This document shows, one piece after another, positions 21,719 to 30,217 of a stretch of DNA of 64,000 nt. The stretch is from Mayamaea pseudoterrestris (lineage: Eukaryota > Bacillariophyta > Bacillariophyceae > Sellaphorales > Sellaphoraceae). The notes under the pieces are model-generated. The model searched no databases, was not told the DNA's origin, and saw only the letters and a program-made list of their open reading frames with translations. Position 1 is the stretch's first letter, and each line of letters opens with the position of its first letter. Both the position numbers and the translations under genes were made by a program. The stretch covers positions 186,001-250,000 of the forward strand of contig BROI01000005.1 of assembly GCA_027923505.1 (NCBI GenBank). The letters run 5' to 3'.

Positions 21719-22033
21719 TCAATTGCTTGGATGCTTTAGATTTTCAGAAAGTAAATCAGGAACGGTACGCTACCGCTAGCGGCACGTTCAGCGTGATTGT
21801 TTAGAAGGTGGCGGTGATAATAACGCTTTCGCATCTCCCGATGGTGCGCCCATGATGCGGCGGCGTCAACAATGTTCTTTTCATTCCCGCTAAGATTTTC
21901 TAGTCGTACCGGTTTCGCTTGAGTGCCGACGAGAGCCATCGGTTTTGCGAAACGATCACTCGCTCCCCCTTTTTGTTCTTTCACAAGTTCACCAAGTAGT
22001 GTAAGGGGCCTTAACTTTACAACGTGCATCACC
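21719..22033. promoter_or_regulatory. Divergent promoter BTB / UTP7 with TACCGGT
   Basis: 315 bp between start codons. TACCGGT at 21907-21913 is one of several near-identical palindromes upstream of genes in this window. The frame of UTP7 is open upstream to 21923, but the similarity starts at 22034. Confidence 0.4.
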
Positions 22034-23824
22034 ATGACGGACCGGAAGGACGTAGAATACGACCCCGATGGTACCTTACTTGTAGCCCGCGGTAATGTCT
22101 CCATCAACGACAAGGAGGAGGATGAACAAGCCACCGAACAGCTCGCCAAGCTGCAGCAACAAGTCGAAAACGACCCAGCACTTCAATCCTTTCTATACAG
22201 CACGACGCAGCCCCAAGCTGCACAGGACCGCTTGAAAATGATGCAAATGGATGATCAGCGTCCAAATCTCTCCAATCTCTCCGATAAGCAGCGACGCGCC
22301 TTTTTGAAGCGATCCTTGTCCAAGAATACTGTCGTGGCCGCCAAACTGAAGCGACACGACACGAAACGTTTACAGGCTGCCATTGCAGCACGAGATGCAA
22401 GTCTAGTCTTTGCAGATTCCGTAGGTTACCTTCAAGCAGAGAATGACATGGAACGAACTACTGCCATGAAGCAGTCGCAGCTGAAGAAACACTTGGATCC
22501 CGAAACGGCGCAGCATATATACGATCTCAAGCTAGCCTGTCCACATGGACTTCAGTATGATCGCTCCGGTCGGTATTCACTGTTATACAGCACGGCGAGT
22601 ACGTCACGCGGCCATGTTGCCGTAATGGACAATTCCTTTCGCACGCTGCAAACCGAGTTTGTCGTGCAGGAGCGCATTCGCGATGCCTGCTTTTTGAACA
22701 ACTCCAAGCTCTTTGCTCTCGCGCAGCAGCAGCATGTATACATTTACGATGATACTGGAGCGGAGATTCACCGGCTGGCCTCTCACATTGATCCGCTGCA
22801 ACTGGAATACTTGCCGCATCATTGGTTACTGGCGAGTTTGGGGCGCGCCGGGCATTTGAAGTATACCGACACATCGACGGGTCAGCTTGTTTCGTCGCAC
22901 AGCGTTGGGGCGCATACGAATGTACTGCGACAGAATCCAAGTAATGCAGTCTTGGTCGCAGGACATGGCAATGGCAGCGTAAGTCTCTGGAGTCCATCGT
23001 CGAGCACGTATTTGGCCAAGGTCATGTGCCACAAGGGTTCGCCCGTCCTGTCATGCGCCATTGACGCAGCGGGACATTCGCTCGTGACGGGCGGCGCCGA
23101 TAAGCAAGTATCGGTGTGGGACTTGCGCATGATGAAGCTCCGACATTCCTACTACACGGCAGCTGGTGTTCCATGTAGTTTGGACATCTCGCAACGAAAC
23201 ATGCTAGCTATTGGTCACGCAGGTCATGTGACAATCTGGGGCGCCGACGCGTTGGAATCAAAGGTTCGGGATCCGTATCTGCACCACTTGGTACCCGGTG
23301 GTAGTCCAATCGAGACGGTCCGGTTCCGTCCCTTTGAAGATGTTTGCGGTGTAGGCCATGCCAATGGAATAACCTCCATGGTTGTCCCTGGTGCAGGTGA
23401 ACCAACATTTGACACGAACGAATATCATTTGAACCCGATGCAGAGCGTAAAGCAGCGACAGGAGCAAGAGGTCCGATCGTTAATGGATAAGCTAAGGCCC
23501 GATATGATTGGACTCGATCCGGATCAAGTCGGTGCCATGGAGGAGAGTGACCCGCATCGACGATTGGAACGGATTCAGCAGCTACAAGAGGAGGCAAATG
23601 CCAAGCCTCAAGCGAAGAAAAAGCAAAAGTCGAAGAAGAGAGGGCGCAGCAAGATTCAGACACAGCTGAGACGAAAGCAGGCCAATATAGTCGACCAGAA
23701 TGTCATGCAACTTCGACAGGCGCGAGAGAAGGAGAAGAGCGATGCAGAGGCGACAAGAAATGGTATCGAGCCCGAGCCGAGTCGAAAGGAAAGTGCTCCA
23801 GCGGCACTGAGACGCTTTTTCTGA
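22034..23824 (+). CDS. UTP7: U3 snoRNP protein UTP7 / WDR46 (BING4)
   Basis: 596 aa from the ATG at 22034 (caccATGACGG). UTP7 belongs to the small-subunit processome that processes the 18S rRNA precursor in the nucleolus. The N-terminal region (about 80-160) is helical and basic (RRAFLKRSLSKNTVVAAKLK), as in the family. WD-type repeats follow, for example GHVAVMDNSFRTLQTEF and ALVTGG-like LVTGGADKQVSVWDLRMMKL. The C-terminal BING4CT region is very clear: VRFRPFEDVCGVGHANGI, then GEPTFDTNEYHLNP. The tail is a Lys-rich nucleolar-type extension (KKKQKSKKRGRSK). Confidence 0.93.
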   Translation: MTDRKDVEYDPDGTLLVARGNVSINDKEEDEQATEQLAKLQQQVENDPALQSFLYSTTQPQAAQDRLKMMQMDDQRPNLSNLSDKQRRAFLKRSLSKNTVVAAKLKRHDTKRLQAAIAARDASLVFADSVGYLQAENDMERTTAMKQSQLKKHLDPETAQHIYDLKLACPHGLQYDRSGRYSLLYSTASTSRGHVAVMDNSFRTLQTEFVVQERIRDACFLNNSKLFALAQQQHVYIYDDTGAEIHRLASHIDPLQLEYLPHHWLLASLGRAGHLKYTDTSTGQLVSSHSVGAHTNVLRQNPSNAVLVAGHGNGSVSLWSPSSSTYLAKVMCHKGSPVLSCAIDAAGHSLVTGGADKQVSVWDLRMMKLRHSYYTAAGVPCSLDISQRNMLAIGHAGHVTIWGADALESKVRDPYLHHLVPGGSPIETVRFRPFEDVCGVGHANGITSMVVPGAGEPTFDTNEYHLNPMQSVKQRQEQEVRSLMDKLRPDMIGLDPDQVGAMEESDPHRRLERIQQLQEEANAKPQAKKKQKSKKRGRSKIQTQLRRKQANIVDQNVMQLRQAREKEKSDAEATRNGIEPEPSRKESAPAALRRFF

Positions 23825-24105: not shown

Positions 24106-25818
24106 CTACTTGTACGGCCTTTCCTCATCGTGATTATCTAAAGGAGCCGCCGGCACAAGGGTCCAACAAGGCCCGCACTTGAGCCCCGCCTTGTTGTCGT
24201 TGATGCGTGTCGTAATCATGGCAGCTATGACGCTGCTTACCGTTCCCGCAATAAAGCATGCTGCAAGTCCCGAGACGGCATTGTTGCCCGAATAATCATT
24301 GTAATCGTCTCCAATGTACGTGTAAAGAAAGCCACTCCCAAGAGTTCCAAGCAGTCTACCGAGTGCATTGCTCATGTAGTATAACCCAACAGAAACTGCA
24401 ATCTTTTCCTTGCTGGCGTAATTGACGACGAGGAAGGAGTGAATGGACGAATTGACGGCAAAGATGACAGCGAAAGTAACGATGATCACGGTCATCCAAG
24501 CAATCATTTCAATTTCGTTTCCATTCACAAAACTTGGAGACCATAGCAACACTATGAATCCGACAAGGGTGGGAATGCAGTTGATGATTCCCCAAAACAC
24601 TTCCGTCATTTTGTTGGGCGGCGATTGACGCAACGGTCCCGTGGCAAACTGCGGCGTCCAAGACTGGACCTGACCGTACAATATGATATAGCCGCCAAGG
24701 AATGCGCCTACAACGACGCGCGACAAACCAAGACCACCGCAGCCGCCTCCAACGTTAATGTTTTGGCAGATCTCGTCAAAGCAAACGGCACCAGTCGATC
24801 CGCAGTCTCCATCCACTTGACATGCCAATTCACCCAGCCCCTCGCAAGGCGGACTGCGCAGAAAGAATGGCAGCGGCACTTCGAACCAAAAGTCGCGCGA
24901 CGCGAACAGAAAGAGTCGAGCAACACTCAGCAGCGTCAAGTTGGTGTTTTCAAACGTAAACACTTCCTTCCACGACGCATTCTTCGTCTTTGCAGTTCCA
25001 AGTCCCTTGTGGAGTCCCAGAATCGCCCACGGCATGGCGAGCAGTATCAGTCCCATCATACTCGCCAAGGCAGCTTCGTAGGAGACTTGAAGCAGCGCGC
25101 TACCCAAAAAGTAACCAACGCCCTTGAGACTATTCTTCCATCCCGTCAGCAGCGAAACTAGCTTGAAGAGTTTCGTCTCCTTTTCATCCGGCGTCACCAG
25201 CTTTGTCACCGTCTTGCCTCCCAGTTTCGTCAAGTCCTTGGCAATACCGGCAAACAATTGAGACATTGTCACGTAGATAATGGCCGTCCGTTGACTCCAA
25301 CTTTCGTTCCATCCGAACAAGAGTCCATAGCTAAAGAGCTGCAGCACCAATCCGCTTATCAACGTATACTTGATGCCCCAGCGCGCTCCGAGTATGCCAG
25401 CGGCAAGGTTCGTCACGACTCCGGCAAGTTCGTAGAGTGTAAACATGAATGCCACCTGCAGCGCCGAAAACGACTTGTTGTAGGCATGCAGCAAGACAAT
25501 CATGCGAATGGCGCCATCCGTAATCGTAAACAAGAGGTAGCTGGAGGATATAATGACAAATGGACGAAGAGCTTGTGACCTGGCAGCTTGGAAGAATGAC
25601 TCTTTTGGTGCCGAAGAAACTGCCGCGGTCGAGTCGGACGCGTCGGCGTGGAACGTTTCGAGCTTGCCGTTAACGTCAGCAGGAGCAGCTTCCATGCCAA
25701 GCCGTTCGTCGCGACGCAAGGAATCCATATATTCCTCCTTGACTTCTTCACACTCCTCTCCATGAGTTTCAATGGTCGTCATGACTTGTTGCAACTCGTT
25801 GTTGTTGATGTTGCTCAT
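24106..25818 (-). CDS. arsJ: ArsJ-type MFS permease (1-arseno-3-phosphoglycerate efflux)
   Basis: 570 aa, single exon, ATG 25818. In bacteria ArsJ exports 1-arseno-3-phosphoglycerate made by its partner GAPDH, which detoxifies arsenate. The core (about 85-540) has roughly 11-12 membrane helices and the family's own motifs: FTITDGAIRMIVLLHAY (97-113), YELAGVVTNLAAGILGARWG (129-148), GIAKDLTKLGGKTVTKL (191-207), LLTGWKNSLKGVGYFLGSAL (223-242), LSVARLFLFASRDFWFEVPL (297-316), FAVNSSIHSFLVVNYASKE (453-471) and GLYYMSNALGRLLGT (478-492). Eukaryotic-looking additions are an 80-residue acidic N-terminal extension, an inserted loop with six cysteines (325, 333, 339, 346, 351, 360) and a C-terminal CGPC (548-551). 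It is head to head with the ArsJ-type GAPDH. The cellular membrane is unknown; no plastid presequence is seen. Confidence 0.92.
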   Translation of the reverse strand: MSNINNNELQQVMTTIETHGEECEEVKEEYMDSLRRDERLGMEAAPADVNGKLETFHADASDSTAAVSSAPKESFFQAARSQALRPFVIISSSYLLFTITDGAIRMIVLLHAYNKSFSALQVAFMFTLYELAGVVTNLAAGILGARWGIKYTLISGLVLQLFSYGLLFGWNESWSQRTAIIYVTMSQLFAGIAKDLTKLGGKTVTKLVTPDEKETKLFKLVSLLTGWKNSLKGVGYFLGSALLQVSYEAALASMMGLILLAMPWAILGLHKGLGTAKTKNASWKEVFTFENTNLTLLSVARLFLFASRDFWFEVPLPFFLRSPPCEGLGELACQVDGDCGSTGAVCFDEICQNINVGGGCGGLGLSRVVVGAFLGGYIILYGQVQSWTPQFATGPLRQSPPNKMTEVFWGIINCIPTLVGFIVLLWSPSFVNGNEIEMIAWMTVIIVTFAVIFAVNSSIHSFLVVNYASKEKIAVSVGLYYMSNALGRLLGTLGSGFLYTYIGDDYNDYSGNNAVSGLAACFIAGTVSSVIAAMITTRINDNKAGLKCGPCWTLVPAAPLDNHDEERPYK

Positions 25819-26425
25819 GTCGCTGCAATTGTGTGTATCGTGCTATTGCTCTAAGTACAAGATTCGTCCGGAACGTTTGCGTCGCGCTGACGCGAGCAAG
25901 AGAATCCGCAGGTATGGAATCGAATGATGGTAATGACGCGCACGGCATTTTGAGGGAGGTTTCAGTGAAGTTACGTCGTCTGCCATGGTGGTGGAGGCGC
26001 AAACCTTTGTCTCGAGGTGGACCGGCGCATGAATCTGGAACGTCATGGCACGAATCTCAAATGCAAGTGCAATGTCGCACCGAGAACCGTTTGAATTGTA
26101 CTCTTCGATACACAGTGCTTGCCCGGCTTTTATGCGCGCCGGTCCTGCAATGCTCTGCTTCACAATTTCTTCCCTCAAACTTCCACCATGGGACGACAGC
26201 CACGCACGCTGCCAGAGGCAGCATCAACAATGTGATTCTTTTAGTATCTCAGGAGCCTTCTCAAGCCACACATTATTTTTGCAGACGAGGGGCTCAGGTA
26301 CGTGTGCGAAAGAGAGTGGCTCTGAAATTTGGTCATTCGCTCACACTGCACCTCACATCTTACATCTTTTTCCTTCACAAAGCTCAAACATCTTATCTCT
26401 AGTAAACCAGAAGTCATTTACCATC
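25819..26425. promoter_or_regulatory. Shared divergent promoter of the arsJ / GAPDH pair
   Basis: 607 bp separating the two start codons. Open frames on both strands here have no coding character. A short inverted repeat GCGTC-N5-GACGC lies at 25879-25893, about 60 bp upstream of arsJ. The 60-100 bp just before the GAPDH ATG are pyrimidine-rich with CACATCTTACATC-like sequence, probably 5' UTR. Co-regulation of the pair is inferred from the arrangement. Confidence 0.5.
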
Positions 26426-27565
26426 ATGCCAGTTAAATGTGCCGTCAATGGGTTCGGCCGCATTGGCCGCTTGACGTTTCGATACGTTTGGGACGATCCG
26501 GAGCTTGAGATTGTCCACGTCAACGATTTATGCAGCTGCGAAAGTGCCGCCTACCTGTTAAAGTACGACTCGGTGCATGGAACGTGGGACAAGGAAGTGG
26601 AGCAAGCCGAAAATAATGAAGATGCCTTTACTGTGGACGGCAAGTTGGTTACCTTTAGTCAATGCAAGGACTTTACCCAAGTCGACTACAAGGCCATGGG
26701 AGTTGAGCTTGTCATGGAATGCACTGGCAAGTTTCTCAAGGTTCAAGAACTCAACCAGTACTTTGACTGCGGCGTCAAGCAAGTCGTTGTGAGTGCTCCC
26801 GTCAAGGAAGACGGCGCGCTCAACATTGTGCTTGGTTGTAACGACCACAAGTTCACGACGGAGCACAAGCTCATCACCAACGCTTCCTGCACCACCAATT
26901 GCTTGGCTCCAGTCGTCAAGGTGATACACGAAACGTTTGGAATTGTCAAGGGATGCATCACGACCATTCATGATGTGACTGGAACGCAGTGCTTGGTGGA
27001 CATGCCCAATACCAAAAAGAGTGATTTGCGGCGGGCCCGCAGCGGCATGGTCAATCTTTGCCCGACTAGTACGGGAAGTGCCACTGCCATTGTCGAAATT
27101 TATCCCGAGCTCCGCGGCAAACTGAATGGACTAGCCGTTCGCGTTCCGTTGTTGAACGCAAGCTTGACCGACTGCGTGTTTGTGGTGAACCAAGACGTTA
27201 CCGTCGAGCAGGTGAATGAGGCACTCCAAAGGGCCAGCGAGTCGGGACCTCTCAAAGGCATTCTAGGTTACGAAGTCAAGCCGCTCGTATCGACGGACTA
27301 CACCAATGATACTCGCAGCGGCATTGTGGATGCCTTGTCGACGCAGGTGATTGACGGAAACATGGTCAAAATCTATGTGTACGTGGTGGTTGATTACTGG
27401 ATGGTGTGTTATGTAATACTTTGGTAGTAAACCCACTCATTTTTGTCTTTCATTGGTTGCAGCTGGTATGACAATGAAGCTGGGTATTCCAAACGCATGG
27501 CAGAGCTTTGCAACATTGCTGCTGCCAAGAACATTTCCGAGAAGGAACCATCGTTCAATGAGTAA
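26426..27565 (+). CDS. gapdh (ArsJ-associated): ArsJ-associated glyceraldehyde-3-phosphate dehydrogenase
   Basis: Two exons: 26426-27378 and 27463-27565 (84-nt intron, TATGT/GTACGT to TTGCAG), giving 351 aa. The enzyme has NAD-binding NGFGRIGR (8-15), catalytic Cys155 (NASCTTNCLAP) and His182. It is not the glycolytic form: the usual TTVHAYTATQ is TTIHDVTGTQ, the DGPSxKDWRGGR segment is replaced by KKSDLRRARSGMVNLCPTST, and DSVHGTW and GSATAIVEIYPELRGKLNG match the subgroup encoded beside bacterial arsJ. Splicing restores VWYDNEAGYSKRMAEL, the conserved C-terminal block. The predicted reaction is arsenolysis of glyceraldehyde-3-phosphate to 1-arseno-3-phosphoglycerate, the ArsJ substrate. No targeting peptide is evident (MPVKCAVNGF), so it is probably cytosolic. 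Confidence 0.93.
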
Positions 27566-27667: not shown

Positions 27668-29863
27668 CTAATCGGAAAGATCTTCATGGATTCGTCCCTC
27701 GCTGACAATGTCCCGCAAACGCTGCGCAGCCGCTTCCTCGCTCATGTTGCCGATCTTTTTGAAAACCTCCAACAATTCTCGTTGCACAGCAGCGCCAAAG
27801 CTTCTTGCGCCCCCACAAACAAAAAGGTGGCCACCTTCTACAGTCAGCGAGTGATAAACTAGCTCCTGTCCATACTTCCGCATCGAGTCTGTAACTTGCT
27901 CGCACTTGCCACTCGAGCATCCCGTTGTGTACGTTATAAATGACTTGTTCACCGCTCCTAGTGCCTTGGCTTGATCCACCAAGTCTTGATAGACAGCATC
28001 GGCTGGGTTGCGAAAGCCAAGAAAGAGCAAGTGGTGCTTGTGCGTTCCAAACATGTTTGCCGCTTTGTTTCCACTCAATGTTGCGAACGCAATCCGCTCC
28101 TCCAAAAAGCCGCGAATCGGAGCCACGCCGCAGCCACCGGCAATCAAAATGACAGGAGTCGCTGGATCGTCTGGGAGGCGAAAGGTGGGGTTGGACTTGA
28201 TAGCGCCAACGAGATGGCTGGTGCCGCCAGTAAGGTTGGACATGTAGGACGTGCAGGTTCCGCGTCGGAGGGATCCTTGATTCGTTACATACTTGACTGG
28301 TCGGTACGTCAAGTAGAGCTCGTCCGGATGCAGCAAGGGTGTCGTGGCAATCGAGTAATATCGTCCCTGCATGGGTGGAAGGTTGTACAGCCAATCTTCC
28401 AAGGCAAGGTTCAATCCCTTTGTCGATGACATGGATAGCACCAGCTCCAACGCAGTCTTTCGAGGAATGGCAACCTCATTCTTGTAGTCAATGTCGGTTC
28501 TATCCAAAATTCGTTTGCAAAAGGACGGCGACGGAACAGCGCCAAGGTCGACGCAGTGACTCAGAGTTTCATACACTGAAATCTTGGTCGGATGCGGATA
28601 TCGCTTGTCGTTCGCATACACAATGACAGCGTGCGGATCAACATCAAGCACTTGGCAGAGAGCGTCCACCAAGAAGTCGGGATTGCGAGGAAAGATTTCA
28701 AAGTGATCGCCAGTCCCATAGGTCATGTTTGCTCCCAGCTCGATGCGAAGCTCGTGGAGCCCGTTGGATGCAGGATCCGAGTTGAGGGAATCATTGGCTT
28801 GCACCCGCAGCTCCTTGCAACCTTTTGGATAAAGTTCTGGTGCAACCTTCATAAGGTTCGTGCGTACGTAGGAAGTCAAGGGAGCTTGCAGCTGCAGTGG
28901 ATGTTTGGCCGACACTCGACGACGGCCATTTGACGACTTGGCTCCTGGGCAAAGGACTGTTTTCATTGCAGTCTCTTGTTGAGTAGCATTTGCCTCACTT
29001 TCACGTACACCCGCTGAAGCAACGATGCTAGGAGCTTGATCATGCGTATCGAGTGGCTCCTTGTCGATTGCAGTGGCACTGTTGTTACCATGCTTTAGCA
29101 AATTCAAAATTTGAGCCTGCCACTGATCAAAGTCGTCTTCGATGCAGTCGGCATCATTTCCCAAAGCCAGTGGCAAGACTCCAGATTCTCCCAATGCATG
29201 ATCCACAGTCTTGGCCACGGCATTGTAGTGGTTCGGATGGGCCGCCTGGTTGCCGAGTCCAAAGATGCAGTAGTGAAAGTTGCTGCTGCTGCTGTTGGTT
29301 TTCGTTGCATCGTCACTAGTTAGGTAACGAAACAAATCTCTTCCGTTATCGGGCGGCTCACCGACACCAGTCGTGGAACAAATCAAAATTGTCAGCGTCT
29401 CTGGGTCGCTGCCTTGCAGCAGCAAGTCTTGCGGCGCCACGGACGCCCATGGCGCCACATCTACCTGGAAATCGCCAAACGCATCCTGAATCGCGTCGCA
29501 TAGCTGCATGGAAAACATTTGGGCGGTTCCTCCCTGACTCGCAAAGCGAATGCGAATCTTGGTGAATGATGTACTACAAGATGGTATGGCGGCACTGACT
29601 GTTGACATGAAGCGAAAGTTGGAGAATGGTGCACATATGCGGAACGATGACTGAGCGAATGACTTGCACGTTGACAGAGTCCCTTCAATCGCACCAGTAG
29701 CCTTTGACAAGGAACGAAGCAAGACTTGAGGTCCTGCAGAAAGGCATGGGCGCATCATGGAGCAAGACGACAGGATTGACATTGCTCGTTGAGTCGAGGA
29801 AGCGACTCGACGTGTAGCTCCTCGAGTGACGCCGAGCGATGATGCAGGTCGAAGAATCATCAT
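27668..29863 (-). CDS. Diflavin (FMN/FAD) NADPH reductase, organelle-targeted
   Basis: 731 aa from the ATG pair at 29863/29860. The first 100 residues are rich in Ser/Arg/Ala and lack acidic residues at the start (MMILRPASSLGVTRGATRRV), like a mitochondrial presequence. The flavodoxin-like domain (about 100-240) has IRFASQGGTAQMF for FMN phosphate, CSTTGVGEPPDNG and IFGLGNQAAHPNHYN. The FAD domain has a GTGDHFEIFPRN stretch, RYYSIATTP and GTCTSYMSN; the NADPH domain has AGGCGVAPIRGFLEER and HLFVCGGARSFG. The architecture is that of P450 reductase, methionine synthase reductase and sulfite reductase flavoproteins. The end, GRIHEDLSD, lacks the terminal aromatic residue (Trp/Tyr) that stacks on FAD in these families. 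It is only about 100 bp from the GAPDH 3' end, convergent. Confidence 0.82.
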   Translation of the reverse strand: MMILRPASSLGVTRGATRRVASSTQRAMSILSSCSMMRPCLSAGPQVLLRSLSKATGAIEGTLSTCKSFAQSSFRICAPFSNFRFMSTVSAAIPSCSTSFTKIRIRFASQGGTAQMFSMQLCDAIQDAFGDFQVDVAPWASVAPQDLLLQGSDPETLTILICSTTGVGEPPDNGRDLFRYLTSDDATKTNSSSSNFHYCIFGLGNQAAHPNHYNAVAKTVDHALGESGVLPLALGNDADCIEDDFDQWQAQILNLLKHGNNSATAIDKEPLDTHDQAPSIVASAGVRESEANATQQETAMKTVLCPGAKSSNGRRRVSAKHPLQLQAPLTSYVRTNLMKVAPELYPKGCKELRVQANDSLNSDPASNGLHELRIELGANMTYGTGDHFEIFPRNPDFLVDALCQVLDVDPHAVIVYANDKRYPHPTKISVYETLSHCVDLGAVPSPSFCKRILDRTDIDYKNEVAIPRKTALELVLSMSSTKGLNLALEDWLYNLPPMQGRYYSIATTPLLHPDELYLTYRPVKYVTNQGSLRRGTCTSYMSNLTGGTSHLVGAIKSNPTFRLPDDPATPVILIAGGCGVAPIRGFLEERIAFATLSGNKAANMFGTHKHHLLFLGFRNPADAVYQDLVDQAKALGAVNKSFITYTTGCSSGKCEQVTDSMRKYGQELVYHSLTVEGGHLFVCGGARSFGAAVQRELLEVFKKIGNMSEEAAAQRLRDIVSEGRIHEDLSD

Positions 29864-30217
29864 GATTAACTTTTTTAAAGCAAATTGCTGCTTGATATCA
29901 GAGTAGAGTCTTTTATGACTACTCCATGTCTTTGACAGTAAAAAGGTGCCGGTAGTTGTGTTATGAACGAGAAGAGCTTCGCGTTCAAAATGGATCGCGA
30001 TCTTCATCGTCCTGCTAAATCTGTGAACGAAAGCGAAGTGTCGTTACGGTACTCCGATGTCCGTGCGGTACACATTATTTAAATATCTAGGTCACAACGG
30101 TAATCAACGGAGCCGGCTGTCACACGACGACGATGGAAGACGCACCAACACCATTTGCGATGATGATGGCAATACCATGGCAGGCTACAAAACCAATAGT
30201 GATTCTGCAATAACAGC
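29864..30217. promoter_or_regulatory. Divergent promoter, diflavin reductase / AAA ATPase
   Basis: 354 bp between start codons. No clear gene and no strong motif; GCCGGTA near 29949 is a weak match to the recurrent TACCGGTA. Confidence 0.35.

Follow-up and report, generated by a model that had tools for sequence, protein, structure and literature searches.

Does a diatom keep, side by side, the two genes of a bacterial arsenate-export pathway, and if so what would they do in its cytosol? The question is raised by a window of 64,000 nucleotides (the whole stretch of DNA that was analyzed; contig BROI01000005.1, here C5, positions 186,001 to 250,000) from the 30.6 Mb genome of Mayamaea pseudoterrestris, in which an ArsJ-like permease of the major facilitator superfamily (MFS) and a glyceraldehyde-3-phosphate dehydrogenase (GAPDH) stand head to head. 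The permease gene (24106..25818, minus strand) is a single exon of 570 residues, with its ATG at 25818, its stop at 24106 and an in-frame stop preceding the ATG; it was recognized from its open reading frame (ORF), the NCBIfam profile NF033734 (ArsJ), Pfam MFS_1 and its position in a tree. The GAPDH gene lies on the plus strand and consists of exon 1 (26426..27378, opening with the ATG at 26426), a GT-AG intron of 84 nt (27379..27462) and exon 2 (27463..27565), which ends with the stop. After splicing its product has 351 residues and matches the public model MPSEU_000337800 of the same species at 100% identity from end to end. Between the two ATGs lies a divergent intergenic region of 607 bp (25819..26425), inside which both promoters are presumed to lie. 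The original prediction, made from the sequence alone, had described the adjacency, the divergent arrangement and the single intron correctly. The matches of the permease to NF033734 (E 4e-101) and of the GAPDH to NF033735 (ArsJ-associated GAPDH; E 4e-143) are not due to chance. The gene pair is real and functionally coherent, and we put at roughly 0.7 the probability that it serves arsenate detoxification, as a module of bacterial ancestry which diatoms have retained.

The window GAPDH scored 476.8 bits against NF033735, over the curated cut-off of 450. GAPDH loci were found at five places in the genome, and the window copy alone passes this model (442.6, or 454.4 with neighbours in frame), with the main exons of the four others reaching 328, 307, 284 and 281 bits, far under the cut-off. 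These four are a fusion of triose-phosphate isomerase (TPI) with GAPDH, a locus closely related to the GAPDH portion of that fusion, and two loci on contig C2. The window protein is 39-42% identical to these paralogues versus 49-63% to bacterial ArsJ-linked GAPDHs (the 63% coming from a partial frame). As a separate observation, the TPI-GAPDH fusion (minus strand) and its relative (plus strand) on contig C9 (approximately 222221-225606; L002 and L003) are themselves divergent, with an apparent gap of a few hundred bases between them, and give this genome a second head-to-head arrangement of GAPDH genes.

A GAPDH tree was built from 75 rows: 14 diatom sequences drawn from 120, 42 bacterial ArsJ-linked sequences drawn from 77, the four paralogues, and 15 further bacterial rows which include two of Epd type and one unlinked ArsJ-type GAPDH (L107). 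The diatom copies formed one clade (support 100/99), and diatom, bacterial ArsJ-linked and L107 sequences together formed one group of 57 rows (100/100). The gene was also considered as the organism's own glycolytic GAPDH, a candidate that we rejected: in addition to the placement elsewhere at 100/100, forcing the diatom GAPDHs together with the four paralogues gave a tree 193 log units worse (approximately unbiased (AU) test, p 2.8e-70). Eight diagnostic columns, defined as at least 95% conserved in diatom and linked bacterial copies and at most 5% in 21 other GAPDHs, separate the ArsJ type from the rest. Ser218 is found in 120/120 diatom and 77/77 bacterial ArsJ-linked copies and in 0/21 others, while Thr151 is found in 120/120 diatom copies, in all 76 linked bacterial copies with a residue at that position and in 0/21 others; the catalytic Cys155 and His182 are kept in all 120 diatom GAPDHs. 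By curated profile, tree and diagnostic residues, the window GAPDH is thus assigned, as had been proposed from motifs which we likewise find in it, to the ArsJ-associated type, and it stands apart from the other GAPDHs of its own genome. The Thr-Gly just before Ser218 occupies what we take to be the phosphate-binding site of ordinary GAPDH, and Ser218, because it adjoins this site, is a candidate determinant of arsenate preference. A search of solved structures returned 140 GAPDH matches, led by 1gd1 at 333 bits; no name pointing to an ArsJ-linked enzyme appeared among the 60 matches listed.

For the permease, ArsJ was the sole NCBIfam match at E 0.001, and a genome search with the ArsJ model found no second gene besides this one, which scored under the cut-off of the model. 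When 80 members of a set of 121 diatom relatives were scanned with NCBIfam, the ArsJ model was matched by 80/80 and any other transporter model by at most three. The identification as an ArsJ homologue, for which the original prediction had cited motifs that are indeed present, is upheld, and membership of a different MFS family, which it had raised as the finding that would count against it, is not what these scans indicate. When 121 diatom and 85 bacterial ArsJs are compared, 81 columns reach at least 95% identity within each of the two groups. In a tree of 61 rows (14 diatom, 46 bacterial and one from a viral contig) the diatom sequences stood apart from all others with full support and on a very long branch, and because of the length of this branch the tree names no donor. 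Solved structures gave no meaningful match to ArsJ, the best hit being a TFIIH subunit at E 0.76. Among plasmids, the 40 matches listed (of 66 records) comprised 34 annotated as arsJ, one as an MFS protein and five without annotation. Viral contigs yielded nothing with the diatom ArsJ as query and one locus with a mixed bacterial-diatom alignment, and phages yielded one partial-match record. At the viral locus (L092, IMG/VR contig IMGVR_UViG_3300033439_001091) the contig, which is classed as viral, opens with an ArsJ gene, and this gene clusters with a copy from an alphaproteobacterial plasmid (L009; 100/100).

The diatom permeases differ from bacterial ArsJ in their cysteines. The region corresponding to residues 320-366, which the alignment places between the expected helices seven and eight, is 46-73 residues long in diatoms (median 48) versus 7-16 in bacteria (median 8). 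In the window this stretch (24721..24861, minus strand) holds cysteines at 325, 333, 339, 346, 351 and 360, each of them invariant in 121/121 diatom copies; the loop contains six cysteines in 120 of these copies, eight in the remaining one, and none in 85/85 bacterial ArsJs. General MFS topology would put such a loop outside or in a lumen, where disulfides can form. At the C terminus a CG(P/S)C motif (24166..24177, minus strand) contributes Cys548, present in 121/121 diatom copies, and Cys551, present in 110/121; both columns are empty in all 85 bacterial ArsJs, whose frames were read to the stop codon and whose tails contain some cysteine in 8/85 cases and a C-x-x-C in 0/85. The coordinates of the loop and of the motif were worked out manually from residue numbering. 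One of the 80 scanned diatom permeases weakly matched a cysteine-rich repeat model. The six-cysteine loop, set apart here by alignment with bacterial ArsJ, appears to be new, and it offers a concrete difference, open to testing, between the bacterial and the diatom ArsJ.

Bacterial counterparts were sampled from at least 575 ArsJ loci by taking the 80 most similar to a Leptolyngbya ArsJ, a choice which biases the sample. A GAPDH of the same type was found beside ArsJ within the fetched flank at 72/80 loci, always on the same strand; by name the 72 span eight phyla, five of the loci being unassigned. In 70 of the 72 the GAPDH frame begins upstream of ArsJ. Of the other two, L035 has both genes in a single frame, and in L088 the stop-to-stop frame of ArsJ has an early start. 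The eight unlinked loci include L028, which is cut by the end of its contig, and L067 of Magnetovibrio blakemorei (G006), whose genome carries an ArsJ-type GAPDH elsewhere (L107). Possible fusions were noted among these loci. In a contig of a Filomicrobium metagenome-assembled genome (MAG; NZGY01000106.1, L035:2897-5254), the ArsJ-type GAPDH and ArsJ share one frame of 785 residues, which is either a natural fusion or the result of a lost stop codon in a record with ambiguous bases. In a Halochromatium MAG (L057) and the GSL gammaproteobacterial MAG (L068) the ArsJ frames extend approximately 210-217 residues past the last helix, with tails that by eye resemble a membrane-fusion (HlyD-like) adaptor and may thus be ArsJ-adaptor fusions.

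Compared with the arsJ-gapdh pairs of P. aeruginosa DK2, Halomonas GFAJ-1 and the V. cholerae var genes, the diatom pair comprises the same two families in the same pairing, and its GAPDH has the catalytic and diagnostic residues in common with theirs. In the bacterial pairs both genes are on the same strand with the GAPDH first, and other ars genes stood alongside in the five plasmid loci that were read. The diatom pair differs in its divergent arrangement, its intron, an N-terminal extension, the six-cysteine loop, the C-terminal CG(P/S)C motif and a very divergent permease.

Eukaryotic precedents have been reported. In green algae, ArsJ, a bacterial-like GAPDH3 and a gene resembling phosphoglycerate kinase (PGK) are neighbours, and the GAPDH and ArsJ were suggested to be bacterial in origin and gained as a functional unit (Foflonker and Blaby-Haas 2020, PMC7826186). 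As in the diatom, a eukaryotic ArsJ homologue there lies close to a bacterial-type GAPDH (607 bp away in the window), and GAPDH3 is distinct from GAPC and GAPA/B just as the diatom enzyme is distinct from its own paralogues; in most green algae, though not all, PGK3 or PGK4 is found alongside, whereas the diatom pair has no PGK beside it. The terms diatom, stramenopile and Phaeodactylum are absent from its text. Cyanidiales, which are red algae, also have arsJ, and an arsJ tree unites red-algal, Viridiplantae and other eukaryotic sequences (PMC9812998); the Cyanidiales gene is reported to stand alone, whereas the diatom copy studied here adjoins a GAPDH. A search of the open-access literature returned no title on ArsJ in diatoms. 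The original prediction had named the pair correctly but over-rated its novelty: the pair is not special to this genome, as the ArsJ-GAPDH pairing was already known from green algae and relatives of both proteins are widespread in diatoms. The most useful new points are the six-cysteine loop, the probable reassignment of a diatom GAPDH so far called glycolytic, and the breadth of occurrence in diatoms.

This breadth was read from the best 120 of 3,826 matches for ArsJ and the best 120 of 8,000 scored for GAPDH, most of them without an organism name. Every readable name among them was that of a diatom, centric or pennate, with Nitzschia, Cylindrotheca, Seminavis, Epithemia, Fistulifera, Fragilaria and Skeletonema among the ArsJ-like matches and Fistulifera, Phaeodactylum, Cylindrotheca, Fragilariopsis, Epithemia, Cyclotella, Eucampia and Helicotheca among the GAPDH matches. 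Both families are also represented in mmetsp transcript collections, and a protein search with the mixed bacterial-diatom alignment gave only diatoms and bacteria among the readable names. With names from diatoms only, and from both centric and pennate genera, neither gene looks recently imported, and since both groups are represented, both genes were probably present in an early diatom. Three of the diatom-like GAPDHs (P0134, P0194 and P0228) end at the point where exon 1 of the window gene ends, as if read into an intron, which suggests that they share its intron position.

Several observations weigh against the reading of the pair as an arsenate-detoxification module. The permease scored 339 bits with NF033734, under the bacterial equivalog cut-off of 400, and for this reason we grade it as an ArsJ homologue (ArsJ-like) and not as a certified equivalog; the distance between diatom and bacterial ArsJ is approximately 4 changes per column (2.89 + 1.39). 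Given the score and the distance together, a changed permease substrate is possible. In P. tricornutum the GAPDH is present (P0124), with no ArsJ row so named among the 120 of 3,826 listed, most of which are nameless and so do not establish its absence. Adjacency of the two genes is patchy and not general in diatoms: Epithemia clementina and Fistulifera solaris have their listed ArsJ and GAPDH copies on separate contigs. The comparison of linkage was made by eye from the contig sizes among the matches listed, and as many listed GAPDHs are on contigs of 1-2 kb it is weak either way.

The separated copies bear on whether the head-to-head arrangement has any meaning of its own. Both proteins might take part in arsenate export while their adjacency in Mayamaea reflects a chance rearrangement without shared regulation, a view which we regard as tenable yet doubtful. 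It agrees with the separation seen in Epithemia and Fistulifera and with the 607-bp region, in which no convincing shared element was found, only short repeats with longest exact arms of 10 nt; the promoter scan applied to this region was of bacterial type and ill-suited to a diatom. The claim of a bidirectional pair with a shared regulatory region is not supported by these results. On the other side, the chance of two given genes adjoining is approximately 2/12,000 (an estimate, as the figure of about 12,000 genes is extrapolated from the gene density of the window), and for a permease (P0003) and a GAPDH (P0134) among the relatives the longest contig is in each case exactly 6,973 bp, the one coincidence of length among the matches listed besides that of the window pair. 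These two may share one contig, and in the tree P0003 is the sister of the window permease (100/92).

The proposed mechanism takes its substrate, product, direction of transport and effect on arsenate tolerance from bacterial and green-algal work. The GAPDH, which is probably cytosolic as it has no presequence, would use arsenate in place of phosphate and convert glyceraldehyde 3-phosphate to 1-arseno-3-phosphoglycerate, and the ArsJ-like permease would remove arsenic from the cytosol, either still bound in this adduct or released from it as arsenate. In this way the cell would dispose of arsenate entering with phosphate and would not need to reduce it to arsenite. In the model for P. aeruginosa the GAPDH produces 1-arseno-3-phosphoglycerate, which ArsJ then exports (PMC5930303, PMC7826186), and the ArsJ-linked GAPDH of V. 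cholerae, VarG, prefers arsenate over phosphate (PMC9601151).

The two forms of export correspond to different bacterial models. Should the adduct be a temporary store which falls apart or is cleaved, with the permease exporting free arsenate, the two proteins would act independently and would not need to adjoin, in agreement with the loose linkage of ArsJ and GAPDH among diatoms. This is the model drawn for V. cholerae, where 1-arseno-3-phosphoglycerate was found inside and not outside the cell while free arsenate leaves it, and where an arsJ mutant builds up more arsenate than a varG mutant (PMC9601151). That scheme, however, involves a phosphatase, VarH, and the work on P. aeruginosa and Halomonas GFAJ-1 has been read as export of the adduct (PMC5930303). 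We consider the storage model rather unlikely, although, being a sub-case of the detoxification module that we favour, it does not compete with it and the confidence given to each is not exclusive.

A more distant explanation is re-use in central carbon metabolism. The GAPDH would then be one more glycolytic isozyme of the cytosol, and the permease would carry phosphoglycerate, some other phosphorylated metabolite or phosphate. The long branch of the diatom ArsJ is consistent with it, as is a weak match of one of the 80 diatom permeases to a phosphoglycerate-transporter model (E 1.7e-4). The P. tricornutum GAPDH of this type (P0124) carries generic names only; six GAPDHs have been counted in that species, one of them a third cytosolic enzyme (Kroth et al. 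2008, PMC2173943), which we infer to be P0124. The ArsJ-type Ser218 and Thr151, kept in all 120 diatom GAPDHs, argue against this explanation, as does the arsenate sensitivity of Chlamydomonas mutants in arsJ (and in pgk3; PMC7826186). In addition, the first exons of two other Mayamaea GAPDHs (L003 and L004) open right at the NAD domain without a presequence, as judged by eye and with a further upstream exon possible. An ordinary GAPDH of cytosolic appearance thus exists besides the window GAPDH, which therefore need not serve glycolysis. Taken together, we find re-use in central carbon metabolism improbable, and retain arsenate detoxification as the best explanation.

As to origin, the original prediction had suggested the transfer of a bacterial ars operon. 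A bacterial source of the genes is likely and a joint transfer possible; neither the long ArsJ branch nor the AU tests on GAPDH single out a donor or a date. The AU tests did not reject any of three placements of the diatom copies: with eight cyanobacteria, filamentous or related to these (p 0.13), with seven rows of Synechococcus/Prochlorococcus type (p 0.35) and with two Verrucomicrobia (p 0.27).

The surroundings of the pair were also surveyed. It is flanked by a BING4-type WD-repeat protein (21923-23824, plus strand) and a diflavin reductase-like protein (27668-30007, minus strand), neither of which has an arsenic connection by Pfam, and a Pfam scan of 10 more of the window's ORFs (29 of at least 250 residues were listed) found no arsenic-specific family, with two of those scanned being generic methyltransferases. 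In the genome as a whole the ArsM model gave ten matches, none on contig C5; two ArsM-like loci, on C1 (2339198-2339905) and C34 (242825-243535), scored 182-183 bits, under the cut-off of 263, and in green algae ArsM homologues are likewise found elsewhere in the genome (PMC7826186). PGK matches were obtained at five genome loci, again none on contig C5. One of these (L124, contig C37, approximately 115156-116346) has its PGK domain in one long frame with an upstream region which by eye is nucleotidyltransferase-like with an RGG-rich linker, a possible fusion. ACR3 and ArsB, the two other exporters searched for, gave no match in the genome, where exons were read singly and a gene in small exons could escape. 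Arsenate export by the pair may for this reason be a main efflux route.

A wider picture can be drawn tentatively, and we put it at clearly less than even odds: a cytosolic diatom GAPDH called glycolytic would really be dedicated to arsenate, the permease would have been remodelled in diatoms with an extracytoplasmic domain of three disulfides and a C-terminal cysteine pair guarding or gating export, and the two would form a standing arsenate-rejection pump tied to glycolysis, with a shared regulatory region in the Mayamaea line. Arsenate competes with phosphate wherever the latter runs low, and diatoms rank among the major primary producers. If the pair exports arsenate without reduction, it would add a route beside the reduce-and-methylate picture of diatom arsenic, and a GAPDH now counted in models of diatom glycolysis may need to be removed from them.

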